Shown here one piece after another: positions 22,558 to 34,204 of a stretch of 34,575 nucleotides of DNA (the stretch's first letter is position 1; each line of letters begins with the position of its first letter). The position numbers were made by a program, and so were the translations under genes. Under the pieces are notes generated by a model. The model was not told the DNA's origin. It saw nothing but the letters and a program-made list of their open reading frames with translations, and made no database searches. Source of the stretch: Armatimonadota bacterium (GTDB lineage Bacteria; Armatimonadota; Fervidibacteria; Fervidibacterales; Thermosaccharophagaceae); contig JANXAS010000034.1 of NCBI GenBank assembly GCA_025062195.1, positions 1 through 34,575 of the forward strand. Direction: 5' to 3'.

Positions 22558-25242
22558 ATGATGCATAAAAGATGCGTTATTTTAATTGCTGCAGTCACAT
22601 TTGTGGCTTTTGCTGTCTCAGATGCCTTTTCGGCTGGCGGGAGAGCACAGTTTGGTTTAGCAGTCCGTCTACCGAGCAGGCTGACGGCTTTCAATATGTA
22701 TGACGATGTTGCAAGAGCTGTGTATTCGTGCTGCCGTCCGGATCAGAAGGAACAAATTGAGCTTGCGCTTAGAGCAATTGATGACTTCCTCAACCTTTAC
22801 CCTGATAGCGATTTTGTTCCTTATATGTTCATGTATCGTGCAAGGCTTTACGGGCTCTTACGAGATGCCCGCAAGGTTATTGAAGCGCTTCACGCATTGG
22901 TTGAACGTTTCCCTCATAGCGATCTTGCAGACGATGCCCTATGGATGCTCGCGCAACGCTACGAACGAGATTTCGTCGCCGACAAGGTGACGAGGGCTCG
23001 CTTGCTTGAAAGGCTGGCAAATGAGTATCCAAACAGCATTTATGCTGACAATGCATTGTGCGCGCTTGTGCGCCTTTACTCCGGTGAACGAATGGAAGAA
23101 AGGGCATTGCAAGCCCTTGAGAGGTTACTCAATGAGCACCCATACAGCCCATGTTGCGATGATGCGGTTTGGGATGTGGCAAACAAATATCGTGAGTATG
23201 GAAACTATGAGGCAGCGATCAAAATGTATGAACGCCTCATCAAGAACTACCCGTTCAGCCCACATGTAGATGACGCATCCCTTGCAATCGGAAGATGCTA
23301 CAGGAGTATGAACTTGGATGGTGTTGCGTTGCGCTCCTATGAAACATTCATCAACAGTTTTCCGGGGAGCCCATTCGTTAGAGAAGCAGTGCGCGAGATA
23401 AATGAAATCATGAAGCGCTCACAACGCACACTCGCCATGACATTCCCAGCCGATATAGCGGACGATCTGTTCAACGAGGCAAAGCACTTCCAAGCTATGG
23501 GTCAATACAATGCAGCCGTTCAAGCCTATAGGCGTTTCCTTGCAACTATGTATGGGCATGACAAGTGGTCGGAAGCCCTATTTAACATCGGAAAATGCTA
23601 TCAAGCTATGGAAGTGCTCATTGATAAGTTTGCAAGGGCTGCCGGTCCTGAAGAGATCTATCGCTTGCTCCCCGATTGGCGAGCTGCAGTCGGTAATCCA
23701 ATGGCAAGCACCCCAAATATTGAAAATTGGCAGAGGGCAAATAGCGCAGTTGCTGCTTTCCAAATGGTTGCAAGGTTAACTGGCAGCCCATTGCAAGTCA
23801 GCGCTCTTTATGAGATCGCACAATGCTACTGGCAACTTGGCGACGAAGAGAAAGAAGCGCTCGCGCTCCAGCAGTTGTTGACTGCCTTTCCAGGATGCGG
23901 CTATGATGCCGAGGCTTGGTATAAGGTGCTTCGCTATTACCAAAATCCAGAAAACTATCCCGAATGCCTTAAGGCGTATGAAAGCCTTTCAAGAGCCTTT
24001 CCGACAATATTCCCGCCGAAGCTCGGACAGAACAAGGAAACATTTCTTAAGGTGATGCGCCATTACTATAGGGTTGCAGAAAGAGCATGGCTTGAGGGTG
24101 AGCGCCATCATATCGGATATGCAATTGGCGCTGACGATTTGACGGATGACAGCTTGTTTGTTGGCGGAGCAATCTCACTTGAGATTGGCGATACAAAGGG
24201 TGCAAGGGAAAGGCTCAAGAGGTTGGTTGACCTGTGCCCGACTGGAGAGCTGTATGTTCCAGCGGCATTTCTTCTGGCGAGGGCTTACGAGCTTTCCGGC
24301 GACCGAAAGAACGCAATTCGCACCTATCAACAAATACTGCAGCGCTATCCGGAGTGTGGCTTAAGCGATGACATAGAAGAAGCGTTAACAAGGCTTGGCG
24401 GCGATGGCGCTCAACCGCTGATTGAACGCATCGGTAAGTGGATGGAAGTCGTGAAGAGAAAGCTTCGTGGCGAACTGGGTTGGCAACTTGCAGACCTGTG
24501 GGAAGGCAAAAGGGTGGTTGTATTGATGCCATTTGAAGTGAGCGCATGGGTTCGCCAATACAATTTGCCAAACACTTGGGAAGCTGCCTCTGTATGCCTT
24601 GCCGAATGGACAGGCTGTGACATTGCCACAAACGAGCCAATACTAATCGTGCTTGCAGATGGCATTGGTGGACACCCTCGCAATGTTATCCCGATGAGCA
24701 AATCGCAAGTTGGTGACCCACCGGCGTGGCACCTGGGCTTCAGGGAGCTTACAAGGGCTTTCATATCCTCGGATGAGCTTGGATGGAATGCACTTGGCGA
24801 GACAAAGCCAATTTGGATGGAAGCTTTTTCAAGGCTTGGTGCCGGAGCACTTCAATATGCTCTCGTAAGTGAAACAAGAGACACAATCGGAAGCCCGAGC
24901 GCTATCAAGTTGCCACATGAAGAAGTCGTAAGGATGAGAGAGCGAGCTATAAATTCACTGGTGCAATATGTTCGCCAGGGAGCAGATTTGACGAGACTCA
25001 ATCCTGATGTGGCTCTCGGTATGCTTATATACCTACTTGAGGCAAACGGTTATGGCCAGGAGCTCATTGACTGGTCTCCGTATCAACGCTTCTTCAATTT
25101 CATGCGCACCAAGCGCAATGATGCTGCGACTGCTGGCAGTTGGGTTGAGGTGTTTTCGGAAGCGCTCAAACACACATTCCGAAATGACCTCTCAGGATTG
25201 CTTAGCACTTGGGGATTCCCTGCGAGGAGCACACGAATGTAG
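22558..25242 (+). CDS. Secreted TPR-repeat protein with a peptidase-like C-terminal domain
   Basis: An 894-residue protein with a Sec signal peptide (1-26, cut after AFSA). Residues about 60-320 and 430-625 hold BamD/tol-pal-type TPR repeats with the recurring YPxSxxxDDA pattern (FPHSDLADDALWMLAQRY, YPNSIYADNALCAL, YPFSPHVDDASLAIG). From about 665 the fold changes. HLGFRELTRAFI (725-736) followed by PIWMEAFSRL (Glu755) resembles the HExxH...E pattern of gluzincin peptidases, but Arg729 and Arg733 stand where zinc histidines would be. It is probably an extracytoplasmic scaffold or assembly factor. The ATG at 22558 follows GAGGTGAG. The TPR call is firm; the peptidase relation is inference. Confidence 0.85.
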   Translation: MMHKRCVILIAAVTFVAFAVSDAFSAGGRAQFGLAVRLPSRLTAFNMYDDVARAVYSCCRPDQKEQIELALRAIDDFLNLYPDSDFVPYMFMYRARLYGLLRDARKVIEALHALVERFPHSDLADDALWMLAQRYERDFVADKVTRARLLERLANEYPNSIYADNALCALVRLYSGERMEERALQALERLLNEHPYSPCCDDAVWDVANKYREYGNYEAAIKMYERLIKNYPFSPHVDDASLAIGRCYRSMNLDGVALRSYETFINSFPGSPFVREAVREINEIMKRSQRTLAMTFPADIADDLFNEAKHFQAMGQYNAAVQAYRRFLATMYGHDKWSEALFNIGKCYQAMEVLIDKFARAAGPEEIYRLLPDWRAAVGNPMASTPNIENWQRANSAVAAFQMVARLTGSPLQVSALYEIAQCYWQLGDEEKEALALQQLLTAFPGCGYDAEAWYKVLRYYQNPENYPECLKAYESLSRAFPTIFPPKLGQNKETFLKVMRHYYRVAERAWLEGERHHIGYAIGADDLTDDSLFVGGAISLEIGDTKGARERLKRLVDLCPTGELYVPAAFLLARAYELSGDRKNAIRTYQQILQRYPECGLSDDIEEALTRLGGDGAQPLIERIGKWMEVVKRKLRGELGWQLADLWEGKRVVVLMPFEVSAWVRQYNLPNTWEAASVCLAEWTGCDIATNEPILIVLADGIGGHPRNVIPMSKSQVGDPPAWHLGFRELTRAFISSDELGWNALGETKPIWMEAFSRLGAGALQYALVSETRDTIGSPSAIKLPHEEVVRMRERAINSLVQYVRQGADLTRLNPDVALGMLIYLLEANGYGQELIDWSPYQRFFNFMRTKRNDAATAGSWVEVFSEALKHTFRNDLSGLLSTWGFPARSTRM

Positions 25243-25428: not shown

Positions 25429-26580
25429 ATGGGTGACGACTTGAGTGCTGCTCAGATGACGCAACAGGTGATTGAGAGCAGGAGAAAGTTCCTCAAGCGA
25501 ACTTTGATTTGTTGTATTGGCAGCCTATGCGCTTTTGGTCACCGCTCGGATGCATCGGGCGTCGTAAGTTTAATCAGGGCTCGCTTCTACAGACTCCTAA
25601 GCGACGGCAGAGTAGTGTGCGAACTTTGCCCGCGAATGTGCATTGTGTCTGAAGGTGAGCGCGGCTTCTGCGGGGCGAGAGAAAACAGAAACGGTGTATA
25701 TTACACTCTCGTTTATGGGCGAGTTTGCGCCAAGCTTGTTGATCCCATTGAGAAGCTGCCGCTGTATCATGTTCTTCCAGGGATAAAAACATTCGGGATC
25801 GCAACTGCATGCTGCAACTTGACCTGCAAGTATTGCCAGAGTTGGCAAATATCGCAAGCCCGCCCCGAGGACACACAGAGTGTTTACATGCGACCAAGCG
25901 ATGTGGTGGAAGAGGCAAAAGCGCTTGGCTGTAGAGCCATCGCATATACATACACCGAACCTGTAAACTTCATTGAGTATGCGATTGACTGCGCTAAGGA
26001 AGCAAGGAGAGCCGGCTTGCTCAACATATGCCATACGGCTGCTTATATCAACCCAGAGCCAATGCGAGAGCTTTGCCAATACATGGACGCAATAAACATT
26101 GACCTGAAGGCGTTCAGCGAATCATTCTATCGGGATGTATGCGGTGGGCAGCTTAAGCCAGTGCTTGAAGCAATCAAGATTGTTGTGAACGAAACGAACG
26201 CATGGCTTGAGCTTACATATCTTGTTGTGCCGAGCCTAAATGATAACGAGCGTTCTGTAAAGGAGATGTGCGATTGGCTGAAACAAAATGTCGGCACTGA
26301 TGTGCCGTTGCATTTCACACGCTTCTTTCCGATATATAAGCTGCGTAATCTCCCCGCAACGCCGGCAAAGACAATTGATGCCTTAAGGCGCGTGGCATTT
26401 CAAAGCGGACTCAGATATGTCTATGTGGGGAATGTTCCGGGACACGGTGGTGAATCAACTTATTGTCCGAGGTGTGGCTCTCTCCTCATACAGCGTGTGA
26501 ACTATGTCATACGCTCAAACAGGATGCGAAAGGGGCGTTGTCCTGATTGTGGCATGCCGATACCGGGCATTTGGAGTTAA
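25429..26580 (+). CDS. amrS: AmrS-type radical SAM protein with twin-arginine signal
   Basis: A 383-residue radical SAM protein. The cluster motif is C-x3-C-x2-C (Cys129, Cys133, Cys136, in CNLTCKYCQSWQIS). It is preceded by the family-specific CELCPRMC...GFCGA block (Cys64, 67, 71, 81) and followed by GNVPGHGGESTYCPRCGSLL and a closing CPDCGMPIPGIW zinc-ribbon-like tail. This is the radical SAM member of the AmmeMemoRadiSam group, whose reaction is not established. Ahead of it, residues 17-23 read SRRKFLK, then a hydrophobic stretch to about 36, a consensus Tat signal. The ATG at 25429 follows AAGGGGTG. The next gene starts 19 bases after its stop and also has a Tat signal. No AMMECR1 or Memo gene is nearby. 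Confidence 0.9.
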   Translation: MGDDLSAAQMTQQVIESRRKFLKRTLICCIGSLCAFGHRSDASGVVSLIRARFYRLLSDGRVVCELCPRMCIVSEGERGFCGARENRNGVYYTLVYGRVCAKLVDPIEKLPLYHVLPGIKTFGIATACCNLTCKYCQSWQISQARPEDTQSVYMRPSDVVEEAKALGCRAIAYTYTEPVNFIEYAIDCAKEARRAGLLNICHTAAYINPEPMRELCQYMDAINIDLKAFSESFYRDVCGGQLKPVLEAIKIVVNETNAWLELTYLVVPSLNDNERSVKEMCDWLKQNVGTDVPLHFTRFFPIYKLRNLPATPAKTIDALRRVAFQSGLRYVYVGNVPGHGGESTYCPRCGSLLIQRVNYVIRSNRMRKGRCPDCGMPIPGIWS

Positions 26581-26599
26581 GCACGAGGTGAATAGCTAA

Positions 26600-27604
26600 A
26601 TGGAGCGCAGGCAGTTCCTAAAAGCAACATTCGGTGGCTTGATAGCGCTCGGAGCGAGGGCGTCCGGACAAGTTGCATCCCGTCAGGTTCGTTCAAGGGT
26701 GGTCATCGCTCGCCACAAGTTATTCTATTCGCTGCCGGATGAGAAGCCATATTGGACACTTGACGCCAACCAGCTGTATTGGGCGTTGTTCCAAATGGTC
26801 AATGTCGCACTTGCAAGGCTATTTGGAACCGGCGACGCTCCAACTGCATGGCGCAGGTTAATTAAGCCAAATGAGATAGTTGGTATAAAGGTCAACTGCA
26901 TTGCCGGGGCAACACTTTCAACGAGCCCGATGCTTGTTAATGCGATCATTGCAAGCCTATGTTCCTCAGGCATCAGGCAGGAGCAAATAATTGTTTGGGA
27001 CAGGATGAGTGAGGAGTTGAAAAGAGCCGGCTATGTTATTAGGACAAGCCCTCCGGGAGTTCTCTGCTATGGGACTGATGTAGTCGGATACCGAAAGCAA
27101 CTTTCCTCGTTCGGCGAAGTTACTACATTTGTCAGCAACATCATCGCGCAGCAATGTGATGCCATCATAAACGCTCCGGTTTTGAAGACGCATCAAATAG
27201 CTGGAATCACTGCCGCATTGAAAAACCACTTCGGCTCAATCAACAACCCAAACAGGTATCATCCAAACCGATGTGACCCTTATGTTGCCGATGCTAATTG
27301 CCTTCCAGAAATAAGGCATACGCATCGTTTGGTCATCTGTGATGCATTACGCCCACTATGCCACGGTGGTCCCGAAGATAACCCGAAGTTCAGATGGAAC
27401 TATGGCGGGATAATAGTGGGAGTTGACCCTGTGGCAGTAGATGCTTGCGGTCTACAAATAATACGTGAAAGACGGAAAGCCATCAGACTTGGCGAAATAT
27501 ACCCGGAGCCAACATACATACTTACAGCCGCTGACTATAAGCATTCCCTCGGCACCTTTGACGAGCGCCAAATTGATGTTGTTGAGGTTGACTTGAGCGA
27601 ATGA
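26600..27604 (+). CDS. DUF362 domain protein with twin-arginine signal
   Basis: A 334-residue protein beginning MERRQFLKATFGGLIALGA, a textbook Tat signal (Arg3-Arg4, FLK). The body matches DUF362: IVGIKVNCIAG, then DAIINAPVLKTHQIAGITAA and LKNHFGSINNP, and late GIIVGVDPVAVDACGLQI. DUF362 proteins are often linked to iron-sulfur or ferredoxin-like proteins; their biochemical role is poorly known. No ferredoxin domain is fused here. The ATG at 26600 has GAGGTG nine bases upstream and lies 19 bases after the radical SAM gene, so the two form an operon and probably act in the same compartment. Confidence 0.88.
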   Translation: MERRQFLKATFGGLIALGARASGQVASRQVRSRVVIARHKLFYSLPDEKPYWTLDANQLYWALFQMVNVALARLFGTGDAPTAWRRLIKPNEIVGIKVNCIAGATLSTSPMLVNAIIASLCSSGIRQEQIIVWDRMSEELKRAGYVIRTSPPGVLCYGTDVVGYRKQLSSFGEVTTFVSNIIAQQCDAIINAPVLKTHQIAGITAALKNHFGSINNPNRYHPNRCDPYVADANCLPEIRHTHRLVICDALRPLCHGGPEDNPKFRWNYGGIIVGVDPVAVDACGLQIIRERRKAIRLGEIYPEPTYILTAADYKHSLGTFDERQIDVVEVDLSE

Positions 27605-29930: not shown

Positions 29931-30488
29931 TTAACTGCTTTTTCTTGGTGGGAGTAACTCCTGCTTGAGGCGCTTTGGTGCTACTTTTTTATCAACCAAG
30001 CCGAGTGCTAACGCCACTCCATATAAAATTGCCTCTGGGCGTGGTGGGCAGCCGGGAACATAAAACACTGGGATGTCAATGCCTCTGTCACTCAGGAATT
30101 TAGCCAAACCACCATGCGTGGCATATGAATCAAACCAAATGTTTCCTCCAGTTGGACATGAGCCAACGGCTATAATCAACTTTGGCGATGGCACCGCTTC
30201 AATTAGCCGTTCAAGCGCCGGACCAGATTGCCTTGTGATCGGACCGGTAATGATGATCACATCTGCATGCCTTGGCGATCCAACAAGCCTTATCCCAAAG
30301 CGCTCCGCATCATAATACGGAGTGAGCACATTGATAACCTCAATATCACATCCATTGCAAGCACCTGTGTTTGCATGGAAGACCCAAAGCGCCCTTTTGA
30401 ACGCCTTCTCACATAGCCCTCTAAACCACCCAACCATAACCTTCACCTCATCGTAAGCGTTTGCGCTATCGCCTAACACACGATTCAT
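29931..30488 (-). CDS. hyfI: Group 4 [NiFe]-hydrogenase small subunit / NuoB-like iron-sulfur protein
   Basis: This is the electron-transfer subunit that carries the proximal [4Fe-4S] cluster and normally docks on the catalytic large subunit. From the ATG at 30488, which shares its A with the preceding TGA (TGATG), it has 185 residues. The four cluster cysteines are Cys44 and Cys47 (NTGACNGCDIEV), Cys111 (GSCPTGG) and Cys147 (VPGCPPRPEAI). The C-x2-C spacing is that of the HyfI/EchC/MbhJ group, not the adjacent CC of NuoB. A start at 30521 is possible. The large subunit gene that would normally be near is absent. Confidence 0.9.
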   Translation of the reverse strand: MNRVLGDSANAYDEVKVMVGWFRGLCEKAFKRALWVFHANTGACNGCDIEVINVLTPYYDAERFGIRLVGSPRHADVIIITGPITRQSGPALERLIEAVPSPKLIIAVGSCPTGGNIWFDSYATHGGLAKFLSDRGIDIPVFYVPGCPPRPEAILYGVALALGLVDKKVAPKRLKQELLPPRKSS

Positions 30489-32008
30489 CAGAAACCGCCA
30501 GTAAGAACCTTTAAGATGCACTCTGTTGCTCTATCCAAGATGGGGTGAATCAACCCCGGATAAAAGCCGATAACCACCGTTAATAGGGCAAGCAATAGCA
30601 TCGGGAGAACCATGCTCATGGGCACACTTCTCTCTCCACCATTTGCATGTGCCACTGCTGGTTGTATAGCTTCCACTGGCTTGCCCCAGAATATGCGCAA
30701 AGCAGCCCGCACAAAACAAGCTACCGTTAGCAACCCCGTAAACACTGCTATCACTGCAGCCCATGTCAGGCGCAGGTCCGCCGCTGCAGCAAATAGTGTG
30801 AACTTGCTCATGAACAAGCTGAATGGTGGCAAGCCACCAATAGCGAGTGCGCCAATGAAGAAGCAAATGGCTACAACTGGCATACGGTGCACAAGCCCAC
30901 CAAGTTCACTTAGCCTCCTCGTGCCAGTAACATGCGCAACTGCACCAGCAGCAAGGAAAAGGAGAGCCTTAACAATGGTGTGATTTACCAAATGGAAAAG
31001 ACCACCATAAATTCCAAGGTAAGTTCCAAAGCCAAGCCCTTCAACGACATACCCAATCTGGCTAACAGAGGAATAAGCAAGCATGCGCTTTATATCATCT
31101 TGAACGAGCGCCATCAATATCCCAATAACCATACTTAGGGAAGCCATGATGGCAACGAAGATAATCACAGCCGGATATTGAGGGGCAAACACTGTCACAA
31201 TTCTTGCAATTGCATACGCTCCAACTTTTATCACGATGCCCGATAGCAAAGCGCTAACTGGAGCAGGTGCCTCGGCATGCGCATCCGGAAGCCACGCATG
31301 AAATGGAACAAGCCCAGCCTTCGCACCGAAGCCGGCAACGAGCAAAGCATTTGCAAGTAGCACAACACTATACGGTATCTTTCGCCCAACCCTGCTAAGC
31401 TCAGTTATGAGAAGCACATCACGACCTTTCATCTCAGGTAATCCCGCAACACCGGCATAAATAAGCACAAGACCAAAAAGCGAGAATATGATTCCAACTG
31501 TAACAAGCATGAGATATTTGTATCCAGCCTCAAGCGAACGCCTGTCCCAGTAAAATGTCACAAGGAAGACTGTGGCAAGCGTTGTGGCTTCAAGCGTGAC
31601 ATATAGCCAGACAATGCTATTCGTCACACATGTCCAGTTCATCATGCCGAGAAAGAGAAGAAGCAAGCCATAGTATGTGCTCAACCTTTGTGGTGCATCT
31701 GCGCGATGAGCAACGTGAATTGGGATATACCGGATGGAGTAAATAGCCACAACCATGCCCATGCAGCTTCCAAGCAGTTCCATCAAGGCACTTAAACCGT
31801 CAGCATAAATAGTGTTGTTTAGCGCTACAAGCACATTGCCTTTCATAACTTCAACTGTGATTGCCACCGATATTGCGAATGTCCCGGTAAGCCCAAGGAC
31901 GGCAATAACAGAGTGGAAAAAGCCGCTTGCGCGCCTAAGGCTAAGGCTTATTACGCCACAGACTGTTGGAATGACGAAGACCAAAATTGGTAACCATGAT
32001 TCCACCAT
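30488..32008 (-). CDS. hyfF: HyfF/MrpD-type antiporter-like membrane subunit
   Basis: A 506-residue protein with about 14 membrane helices, of the family shared by Mrp antiporters, NuoL/M/N and hydrogenase-4 subunits B, D and F. Functional residues are visible: the glutamate in LYVTLEATTLATVFL, the lysine and histidine in GFGAKAGLVPFHAWLPDAHA, and Lys in VNHTIVKALLFLAAGA. It would move H+ or Na+ during turnover of the complex. The ATG at 32008 has GAGGTG six bases upstream, better than a GTG at 32017. Its stop overlaps the HyfI-type start. Confidence 0.93.
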   Translation of the reverse strand: MVESWLPILVFVIPTVCGVISLSLRRASGFFHSVIAVLGLTGTFAISVAITVEVMKGNVLVALNNTIYADGLSALMELLGSCMGMVVAIYSIRYIPIHVAHRADAPQRLSTYYGLLLLFLGMMNWTCVTNSIVWLYVTLEATTLATVFLVTFYWDRRSLEAGYKYLMLVTVGIIFSLFGLVLIYAGVAGLPEMKGRDVLLITELSRVGRKIPYSVVLLANALLVAGFGAKAGLVPFHAWLPDAHAEAPAPVSALLSGIVIKVGAYAIARIVTVFAPQYPAVIIFVAIMASLSMVIGILMALVQDDIKRMLAYSSVSQIGYVVEGLGFGTYLGIYGGLFHLVNHTIVKALLFLAAGAVAHVTGTRRLSELGGLVHRMPVVAICFFIGALAIGGLPPFSLFMSKFTLFAAAADLRLTWAAVIAVFTGLLTVACFVRAALRIFWGKPVEAIQPAVAHANGGERSVPMSMVLPMLLLALLTVVIGFYPGLIHPILDRATECILKVLTGGF

Positions 32009-32052
32009 CTCAGGCACCTCTCTACATAGTTGCTATTGCTTTGTTGGAGCAT

Positions 32053-32736
32053 TTAGCGCTTGAGTTCGGAAAGTGCCAGTGTGTCAGTCACTCCGAGCGT
32101 CTTATAGATACCCTCAGTGAGCTTAACGATCATATAAGCTGCGACGACAACATTTGTCCATATCCCAAGCTTTGTTGTTGTGGGTAAAGCTGGCGCAAGC
32201 GTTATAAGCGCCAAATGTGCTCCATTTTCAAGCAAGTGCAAACCTATGACAACCTTAATCACATCCCTGCGCGTTATCAGCACATAGACGCCGAGAGAAA
32301 AAATGCAGAATGCAACAGTAAGGCTTGAGCGTGCTGGCTCAACCATCGCAGCTTGTGTTGGAGCAACAAAGTAGATGTATGTGCGAAGTATCCAATAAAA
32401 AACGACGATAAGCACTGTCCCAAAAAGGAGTGAGGCTCTAAGTCCGATTAATGGACGAAGCTCCACTGTCAGGGATGTAATGTGAAGCATGTAAAACAAA
32501 AGCGCCGGAATAATGACGACCTTGGTGGCAATAGTTATGAACGCCCAAATTAAAAGCGTGTAATTGTTCCAGACGAAAGCGAATGAAGCTATGATGCATG
32601 CCAGAAGAAATGATTGAACAACCAATGCCCATATAGCTGCGCGCAAGTTGCGCAACTCGGCTGCAACGAGAGATGCAATAAGGTGTGTAATCATGAGCAA
32701 CGCCAAAATATCAGTCTGTTGGATAGCTATAGGCAT
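32053..32736 (-). CDS. hyfE: HyfE-type membrane subunit with NuoK-like end
   Basis: A 227-residue membrane protein with about seven hydrophobic helices. The C-terminal half reads DVIKVVIGLHLLENGAHLAL followed by ITLAPALP, the NuoK/MrpC-like part of HyfE with its conserved membrane glutamate. The N-terminal half is typical for hydrogenase-4 component E. The ATG at 32736 follows GAGGTG seven bases upstream. It sits between the ferredoxin-like and antiporter-like subunits, as expected for a group 4 module. Confidence 0.9.
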   Translation of the reverse strand: MPIAIQQTDILALLMITHLIASLVAAELRNLRAAIWALVVQSFLLACIIASFAFVWNNYTLLIWAFITIATKVVIIPALLFYMLHITSLTVELRPLIGLRASLLFGTVLIVVFYWILRTYIYFVAPTQAAMVEPARSSLTVAFCIFSLGVYVLITRRDVIKVVIGLHLLENGAHLALITLAPALPTTTKLGIWTNVVVAAYMIVKLTEGIYKTLGVTDTLALSELKR

Positions 32737-32765
32737 ACTAATTCACCTCACTTGCATATCCTGGT

Positions 32766-33296
32766 CTATTTAACTGACAAAGTTGCCACTGCACCGTAGC
32801 GCTTCTCCATCGGTGGCTTATAACCAGTCTCCATCATCTTATCCAAAACCGTCTTCGGCTTAAAGCATCTACCACAGCGAGAACATGTAGCCATAAACAC
32901 TTCCCAAGTGTCGGTAAGGTCGCCCGGATTGTCGGTGGAGAGCTCAAACTCCATGGTGAGAGTCACAGCGTTTTCCTGACATACCTCTTGGCAACGAGCG
33001 CAGTATGTGCACCTTTCCCTAAATATCGTCATCCGTCTCCACAGCTGCGATGTATCCTCGGGAATGATGCACCTTGATGGACACACATTTGCGCACCCAC
33101 TGCACCCGATACACTTTGACACATCAATCTCAACCTTGCCCCTAAATCCCTCGGGCACTTTGGCACCGGGTCCAAGAGGGTATGGTAGCGTCACAACAAG
33201 TGCTCTTGGAGCACCACCGCGAATTGCCACCATCAACTCTCTTAACTTGCTCCCTATCATTTGGCTGTGCCCCCTCAACAGCAACGAAATCTTCAT
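32766..33296 (-). CDS. hyfH: HyfH/NuoI-type polyferredoxin subunit
   Basis: A 176-residue protein that carries electrons to the small subunit. Two [4Fe-4S] motifs are clear: Cys62, 65, 68, 72 (CIGCSGCANVCP) and Cys96, 99, 102, 106 (CTYCARCQEVC). A third cysteine group, Cys138, 141, 144 (CSRCGRC), lies in the tail, as in the CxxCG tail of HycF/HyfH. The ATG at 33296 overlaps the HyfC-type stop by four bases (ATGA). A second ATG at 33260 has AGGGGG nine bases upstream and gives a more usual N-terminus, so the start is uncertain. It is probably on the cytoplasmic side of the complex. Confidence 0.9.
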   Translation of the reverse strand: MKISLLLRGHSQMIGSKLRELMVAIRGGAPRALVVTLPYPLGPGAKVPEGFRGKVEIDVSKCIGCSGCANVCPSRCIIPEDTSQLWRRMTIFRERCTYCARCQEVCQENAVTLTMEFELSTDNPGDLTDTWEVFMATCSRCGRCFKPKTVLDKMMETGYKPPMEKRYGAVATLSVK

Positions 33297-34204
33297 GGTG
33301 CAACATATGCAACGGCAATGGCTATTGCCGATGTGAGAAAGACACCAAGATAAAAATTAAGCGCTTGATCAACGCGGAGTCGTGGCGAAAGCACTTCAAC
33401 CACCGTTACAACAACGAAGAGCACAAATATCTTGATGAGCGTGATGAGCAAATCAAAAAAGAAGATGCCACTCATCCCCCAAGGTATAAACACGCATGCA
33501 AACAATGACGCACCGACGAATTGACGCATCCACATAGCCCACTTGAGCAAGGCGAGCCTTGGTCCGGAAACTTCAACGAATGGTCCGCCCATTATTTCCT
33601 GCTCGGCTTCCGGTATGTCAAAAGGCAGACGACCAAACTGGGCAAGCATAGCTAAGAAAAGTGCAGCCGAAGCCAAAATCATTGGCAGAGAAAAAACTCG
33701 AGAACGATACCAAAGTATTATCTCAGACAACCTCAAAGAGCGAGCACACACAGCACCGCAAAGCAGGGAACTAATGAATACAAGCTCAACCAAAGCCATA
33801 AGCATCAGCTCTCTGGTCGCACCAGCATACGAGTATGGTGAGCCTGTATCAAGCGCTGTAATGACAAGTGCTGTGGCAGCTAATCCTATCGTATAAATGA
33901 GAACTATAATGTCCCCCCACATATCAAGTGGTGCTTGACCTGCGATCGGCAAAAACAGCGAGGCAACCAAGATTGAGCCAAAACACACTATGGGCATGTA
34001 GACTTGAAGTGGACTGCCAACTTGTATGTCCTCTTTGGAAAACAATTTGAGCAAATCATAAAATGGCTGCCAGACGCCAACAAGTGGACCTCTCCTTGAG
34101 TGGGCAATGTTTGCCCGTATATACTTGCGAACGAATCCCTCAAATAACGGCGCAAAGAATAGAACTACCACTACATTTAGCACCGCAAGACAAAACACAA
34201 TCAT
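33293..34204 (-). CDS. hyfC: HyfC/EchB/NuoH-type membrane subunit
   Basis: A 303-residue protein with about eight membrane helices that anchors the soluble arm to the membrane arm and forms the entry of the ion path. Family signatures are HSRRGPLVGVWQPFYDLLKL near the N-terminus and GRLPFDIPEAEQEIMGGPFV EVSGPR (the acidic NuoH loop) in the second half. The ATG at 34204 has AGGGTGAG upstream. A small inverted repeat (34216-34220 / 34227-34231) lies in its leader. It is the first visible gene of the module; the usual antiporter-like HyfB gene before it is not found. Confidence 0.92.
   Translation of the reverse strand: MIVFCLAVLNVVVVLFFAPLFEGFVRKYIRANIAHSRRGPLVGVWQPFYDLLKLFSKEDIQVGSPLQVYMPIVCFGSILVASLFLPIAGQAPLDMWGDIIVLIYTIGLAATALVITALDTGSPYSYAGATRELMLMALVELVFISSLLCGAVCARSLRLSEIILWYRSRVFSLPMILASAALFLAMLAQFGRLPFDIPEAEQEIMGGPFVEVSGPRLALLKWAMWMRQFVGASLFACVFIPWGMSGIFFFDLLITLIKIFVLFVVVTVVEVLSPRLRVDQALNFYLGVFLTSAIAIAVAYVAP

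Follow-up and report, generated by a model that had tools for sequence, protein, structure and literature searches.

Signal-bearing TPR, AmrS-type radical SAM and DUF362 proteins in a conserved Armatimonadota operon: a possible extracytoplasmic branch of the AmmeMemoRadiSam system

Memo, AMMECR1 and AmrS, the three families of the AmmeMemoRadiSam system, are functionally obscure and are distributed from archaea to humans, with only Memo and AMMECR1 occurring in humans. The AmrS-type radical S-adenosylmethionine (SAM) enzymes are usually regarded as strictly intracellular. The metal ligands of human MEMO1 are two histidines and one cysteine (PMC11081632), and the DUF362 family has been placed together with DUF2088 in one Pfam clan, CL0471, and used as an outgroup of LarA, the LarA-fold enzymes acting on small 2-hydroxy acids (PMC11770544). 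In this study we analyzed a stretch of 34,575 nucleotides from an Armatimonadota bacterium (contig JANXAS010000034.1 of assembly GCA_025062195.1; this whole stretch is referred to as the window), in which the initial annotation, made from the letters alone, had recognized a two-gene operon encoding an AmrS-type radical SAM protein and a DUF362 protein, both with twin-arginine translocation (Tat) signals.

The results suggested that the operon consists of three genes for signal-bearing proteins, namely a TPR scaffold with a Sec-type signal, a Tat-targeted AmrS and a Tat-targeted DUF362, and that it is the branch in Armatimonadota of an extracytoplasmic, AmmeMemoRadiSam-type system shared by multiple phyla; the probability that we assign to this explanation as a whole is roughly 0.58. 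The open reading frames (ORFs) of AmrS (25429-26580, 383 amino acids) and DUF362 (26600-27604, 334 amino acids) were found on the forward strand as annotated, with 19 bases between the AmrS stop and the DUF362 start (26581-26599) and a twin arginine (RR) in both N-termini; for several ORFs the start is uncertain. The pairing of these two genes held up as well and recurs in 14 orthologous operons, but their number did not, as an upstream gene on the same strand (22558-25242, 894 amino acids), which encodes a TPR-superhelix protein predicted to be secreted from its Sec-type N-terminal signal and identified by Pfam TPR matches, belongs to the unit as its first gene.

Homologues of the TPR protein were found in 29 of 291 Armatimonadota genomes. 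In every copy with readable downstream DNA, the window included, the TPR gene is directly followed by a Tat-AmrS (27/27, with RR in 27/27), and a Tat-DUF362 comes next in 14 of these 27 copies (RR in 14/14). The signals are thus conserved in orthologues and the pairing extends beyond one genome, the two points on which the initial annotation had proposed that it be judged, and the idea that the signals are peculiar to the source genome was rejected because the RR is conserved across orthologous operons.

In both window proteins the RR precedes a hydrophobic stretch (SRRKFLKRTLICCIGSLCAFG in AmrS and ERRQFLKATFGGLIALGARASG in DUF362), and the predicted Tat signals lie at 25477-25557 (ESRRKFLKRTLICCIGSLCAFGHRSDA) and 26600-26680 (MERRQFLKATFGGLIALGARASGQVAS), respectively, both on the forward strand, with the RR being invariant in the AmrS alignment. 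The NCBI Tat model TIGR01409 was the best match for both N-termini, scoring 16.2 bits for AmrS and 12.6 bits for DUF362 in comparison to a cut-off of 16.7, and the DUF362 N-terminus reached 15.7 bits with PF10518, also under the cut-off. Among four orthologue N-termini, three scored above the TIGR01409 cut-off (25.9, 24.3 and 17.7 bits) and the fourth reached 16.4, while a cytosolic AmrS used as control gave no match to this model. A single RR signal is weak evidence, because a loose pattern of RR plus hydrophobic stretch was present in 19 of 172 ORFs in the sampled loci of the source genome; the conservation of RR in orthologous operons is stronger evidence for Tat signals than the model scores. 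An ATG at AmrS residue 10 is a possible alternative start which would leave the signal intact, and TatC is encoded in the source genome.

The window AmrS scored 398.8 bits against the NCBIfam model TIGR04337 (cut-off 220) and also matched PF04055. Its cysteine motifs, all on the forward strand, are an N-terminal four-cysteine motif at 25618-25671 (C64, C67, C71 and C81; C67 kept in 67 of 68 signal-bearing-class AmrS and the other three in all 68), the radical SAM CxxxCxxC at 25813-25836 (C129, C133 and C136; 68/68), and a nearly invariant C-terminal zinc-ribbon-like CxxC...CxxC at 26464-26550 (C346, C349, C371 and C374). The SAM-site residues and the TYxEP-type motif are also kept across the signal-bearing clade. 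In a tree of 116 AmrS, the signal-bearing proteins were united in a single clade with 75 rows (a signal is present in 68, uncertain in 5 and absent in 2; the classes, Tat or other hydrophobic N-terminus, were assigned by our own pattern refined by eye), with a Shimodaira-Hasegawa-like approximate likelihood ratio test (SH-aLRT) support of 90, and the localization label changed 4 times in comparison to 37 in shuffles. The clade is deep and includes the window AmrS; its members carry over 25 phylum-level labels, and almost all derive from metagenome-assembled genomes. The AmrS of the TPR operons grouped in a single clade with 28 rows, 26 of which come from TPR operons (SH-aLRT 95); the Armatimonadota families largely cluster in this subtree, and it is largely vertical. 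Six AmrS paralogues above the TIGR04337 cut-off are encoded in the source genome, on contigs C98 (which holds the window), C106, C101, C115, C22 and C87. The paralogue on C22 (locus L056, 7092-8141) falls inside the signal-bearing clade on a long branch, carries no signal, and has one N-terminal cysteine replaced (CTLEPRQC).

The usual partners, Memo and AMMECR1, had been described as absent, and this is correct for the window, as the family search of the source genome found neither on contig C98. It does not apply to the genome, where Memo matches lie on C89, C106 and C148 and AMMECR1 matches on C106 and C115, so that all three AmmeMemoRadiSam families are present and a loss of Memo and AMMECR1 from the organism was rejected, nor does it apply to the signal-bearing AmrS of many phyla. 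On contig C106 (locus L052, 5919-9993), a second AmrS-DUF362 pair of the same genome, consisting of an AmrS with a Tat signal and a DUF362 with a Tat signal and lipobox, is followed by a Memo/AMMECR1 fusion with a lipobox. Because of this locus, and because the same fusion stands beside signal-bearing AmrS in many phyla, we regard the system as a branch of AmmeMemoRadiSam and not as the distinct system that had been suggested.

To describe the neighbors of related AmrS, we used the 80 best-scoring relatives of a larger set from a scan of named genomes, a sample which is not random, and the p-values below are from Fisher tests on these 80 loci which ignore relatedness. A one-gene Memo-AMMECR1 fusion adjoins 25 of 58 signal-bearing AmrS in comparison to 1 of 16 cytosolic ones (p=0.007). 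The fusions linked to AmrS relatives contain both Pfam domains in 29 of 29 cases, carry a signal or lipobox, and keep the MEMO1-type ligands (two histidines, and the cysteine in at least 90%) together with the LRGCIG motif. An integral-membrane spermidine-synthase-like protein was found near 30 of 58 signal-bearing and 0 of 16 cytosolic AmrS (p=8e-5), for example at locus L081 (13946-16102) and about 35 other loci, and it is encoded in the source genome at 17485-19824 of C148; it could have a bearing on SAM handling. DsbD/FMN-bind/Fer4 membrane proteins adjoin 13 of 58 versus 0 of 16 (p=0.058), and the DsbD_2/FMN_bind/Fer4_5 proteins beside signal-bearing AmrS (L107, 1744-3435; L113, 428-2029; and others) are a possible outward electron route. 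Within Armatimonadota, 12 further adjacent AmrS-DUF362 pairs occur outside TPR operons, and at L253, L254 and L257 the genes for Memo-AMMECR1, DUF362 and AmrS are consecutive.

The window DUF362 protein scored 77.6 bits against PF04015 (gathering cut-off 24), and its AlphaFold2 (AF2) model had a predicted local distance difference test (pLDDT) score of 92.6. A Foldseek search with this model returned 15 PDB matches with E<1e-3. LarA-type or malate racemase entries make up 14 of these, and the fifteenth, 4nar, is listed as a putative uronate isomerase but is itself related to LarA in sequence. The best match had a probability of 1.00 and an E-value of 1.2e-6 (values ranging up to 3e-4), but the TM-scores by query were only 0.37 to 0.48, and the kinship is therefore distant. 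LarA was found by the fold search only, as PDB sequence searches with DUF362, by single sequence or profile, gave no match; the LarA-like protein on C115 likewise had no PDB match, and LarA of relatives was used for comparison. Alignment and hhalign placed the motif K196xH198...K208...H221 (27185-27262, forward strand) as the equivalent of LarA H174, K184 and H200 (numbering from 5huq), with H198 and K208 falling on the H174 and K184 columns (E=2e-4, probability only 46%) and H221 being matched to H200 by position only. H198, G202, K208 and H221 are invariant in 18 Tat-DUF362 sequences, and the motif recurs, by a strict pattern, in 19 of 23 DUF362 examined. In predicted fold and in key residues this DUF362 thus resembles the LarA-type nickel-pincer enzymes, with the cofactor itself being hypothetical; LarC is encoded in the source genome. 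DUF362 had previously been offered as a possible electron donor to AmrS, which we rejected, since the alignment of 18 Tat-DUF362 sequences has no invariant cysteine and the fold is that of LarA.

The TPR protein was modeled by AF2 as a TPR superhelix with a C-terminal domain (pLDDT 85.8); this domain, at about residues 640-890, has no Pfam match, and the fold search with the whole protein returned generic TPR superhelices only. Its best-conserved blocks in an alignment of 24 sequences are LPTRLTxYNxHDDAAxASYTCCKPxQ and QYxLVTETRDAIGSA, the former corresponding to the near-invariant LPxRLTxxNxxDDxAxAxYxCCxPxQ just past the signal (residues 39-62; 22672-22743, forward strand), the cysteine pair of which is kept in 22 of 23 N-termini. 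The YxCC segment is a candidate target or docking site. In the explanation that we prefer, AmrS and DUF362 would be loaded with Fe-S clusters and any pincer-type cofactor while still in the cytoplasm, would be sent out in folded form through Tat, and would act jointly outside on a substrate that the TPR protein holds; the signal-bearing Memo-AMMECR1 fusion, encoded at another place in the genome, may participate in trans. The idea that YxCC itself is the substrate is doubtful and is put forward tentatively, and the full proposal, in which an extracytoplasmic radical SAM protein and a LarA-fold DUF362 modify YxCC of the secreted TPR protein as a branch of widespread Memo-AMMECR1-radical SAM chemistry, we consider improbable as it stands.

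Several observations weigh against the exported three-gene system. No DUF362 is adjacent in 13 of the 27 TPR-AmrS copies (the contig stops at AmrS in 2 of the 13), which means that DUF362 is no obligatory member; for the AmrS closest to that of the window (L225, 1-870; 67% identity), too, none is present in the 870 downstream bases left on its contig. Across the best 80 loci, DUF362 adjoins 12 of 58 signal-bearing and 0 of 16 cytosolic AmrS, a borderline difference (p=0.058). Both window signals score just under the Tat-model cut-offs, and the window AmrS carries L110, C128 and S138 at near-invariant sites (K110, G128 and N138 in the family), some of which vary within the TPR clade too. The equivalent of LarA H108 is missing, as there is no invariant histidine at this place in the DUF362 alignment and VWDR is found instead. 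We know of no nickel-pincer evidence for any DUF362 and of no SAM outside the cytoplasm, and export, activity, substrate, and the supply of SAM and electrons are all inferred from sequence.

The last of these points would be solved if the RR segment were a signal anchor, tethering AmrS to the membrane with its catalytic domain in the cytoplasm, near SAM and low-potential electrons, and in some clade members the N-terminus is simply hydrophobic and lacks the RR. This arrangement is nevertheless rather unlikely in view of the strict RR in 27 of 27 operon AmrS and the Tat-model matches in orthologues, the Sec signals or lipoboxes which place the partners outside, and the DsbD/FMN-bind/Fer4 neighbors in other phyla, which are of a type that serves electron transfer outside the cytosol. 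The apparent lack of extracytoplasmic SAM and the three altered residues would also agree with an exported AmrS that has been retired from radical chemistry and would carry electrons, or act as an Fe-S scaffold, for either DUF362 or the TPR protein; the retention of CxxxCxxC in 68 of 68, of the TYxEP-type motif and of other core residues in the clade makes such a retirement distinctly unlikely. Alternatively, exported AmrS and DUF362 might have a small molecule or a lipid of the envelope as their substrate, and the TPR protein would only be a binding scaffold, a reading which we take as possible with chances somewhat below even: no such TPR partner is among the recurrent neighbors of the signal-bearing AmrS of other phyla in the best 80 loci, and LarA-fold enzymes use small 2-hydroxy acids (PMC11770544), but the cysteine-pair segment is among the best-conserved parts of the TPR protein. 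Finally, the genes flanking the operon in the window, for phosphofructokinase upstream and a KduI/IolB-like protein downstream, share no common theme, as would be expected of a coincidental neighborhood of unrelated genes; this is largely refuted, and hardly credible, given the TPR-AmrS order in 27 of 27 readable copies from several families and the largely vertical AmrS subtree.

Elsewhere in the window, the reverse strand carries at 29931-34204 NuoB-like and antiporter-like (NuoM/HyfF type) genes by family scan and Fer4 and NuoH/HyfC-like genes by eye, which probably belong to a membrane hydrogenase or complex-I-like cluster, and at 2-721 an ORF running off the window end, which by eye encodes a sigma-factor-like protein with a KGKRKGKRKGKRKGKRKGKR repeat inside.

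If the exported three-gene system is real, a signal-bearing operon recurring across the phylum points to unstudied radical chemistry outside the cytoplasm, and a radical SAM enzyme working there would overturn an assumption about which compartments can supply SAM and low-potential electrons. A large branch acting outside would also make it unlikely that the shared chemistry is confined to RNA or other cytosolic targets, and exported proteins would offer handles for purification and substrate search. Through its link to LarA, DUF362, a large family of obscure function, gains a cofactor hypothesis that can be tested. The arrangement was not described in the open-licence literature on AmmeMemoRadiSam, on DUF362 with radical SAM, or on nickel-pincer with radical SAM proteins, an earlier notice of a Tat-AmrS being possible.

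In comparison to the LarA/DUF2088 racemases (CL0471), the DUF362 protein has an H-x3-G-x5-K motif and a later histidine which align with H174, G178, K184 and H200, but it has no Pfam Lar_N match and no histidine at the H108 site, and it carries a Tat signal. Proteins of extracytosolic flavin/Fe-S electron transfer (FMN_bind, NapH/Fer4_5 and DsbD_2) adjoin signal-bearing AmrS in some other phyla, whereas no such protein was seen in the window, and radical SAM, DUF362, Memo and AMMECR1 are unmentioned in two flavinylation surveys. The nearest solved radical SAM relative of AmrS by sequence is the pyruvate formate-lyase activating enzyme (3c8f, E=2e-4), which is cytosolic and the 245-residue chain of which aligns with AmrS residues 117-285 only and lacks the N-terminal four-cysteine part. 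The AmmeMemoRadiSam system shares with this operon an AmrS that scores above the family cut-off and has every cysteine motif and, in the same genome, a linked AmrS-DUF362-Memo/AMMECR1 locus, and the Memo of signal-bearing loci keeps the H, H and C ligands as in human MEMO1 (PMC11081632); the differences are that the window AmrS is signal-bearing and paired with TPR and DUF362 proteins instead of Memo and AMMECR1, which at signal-bearing loci mostly occur as a fusion and have a signal of their own.
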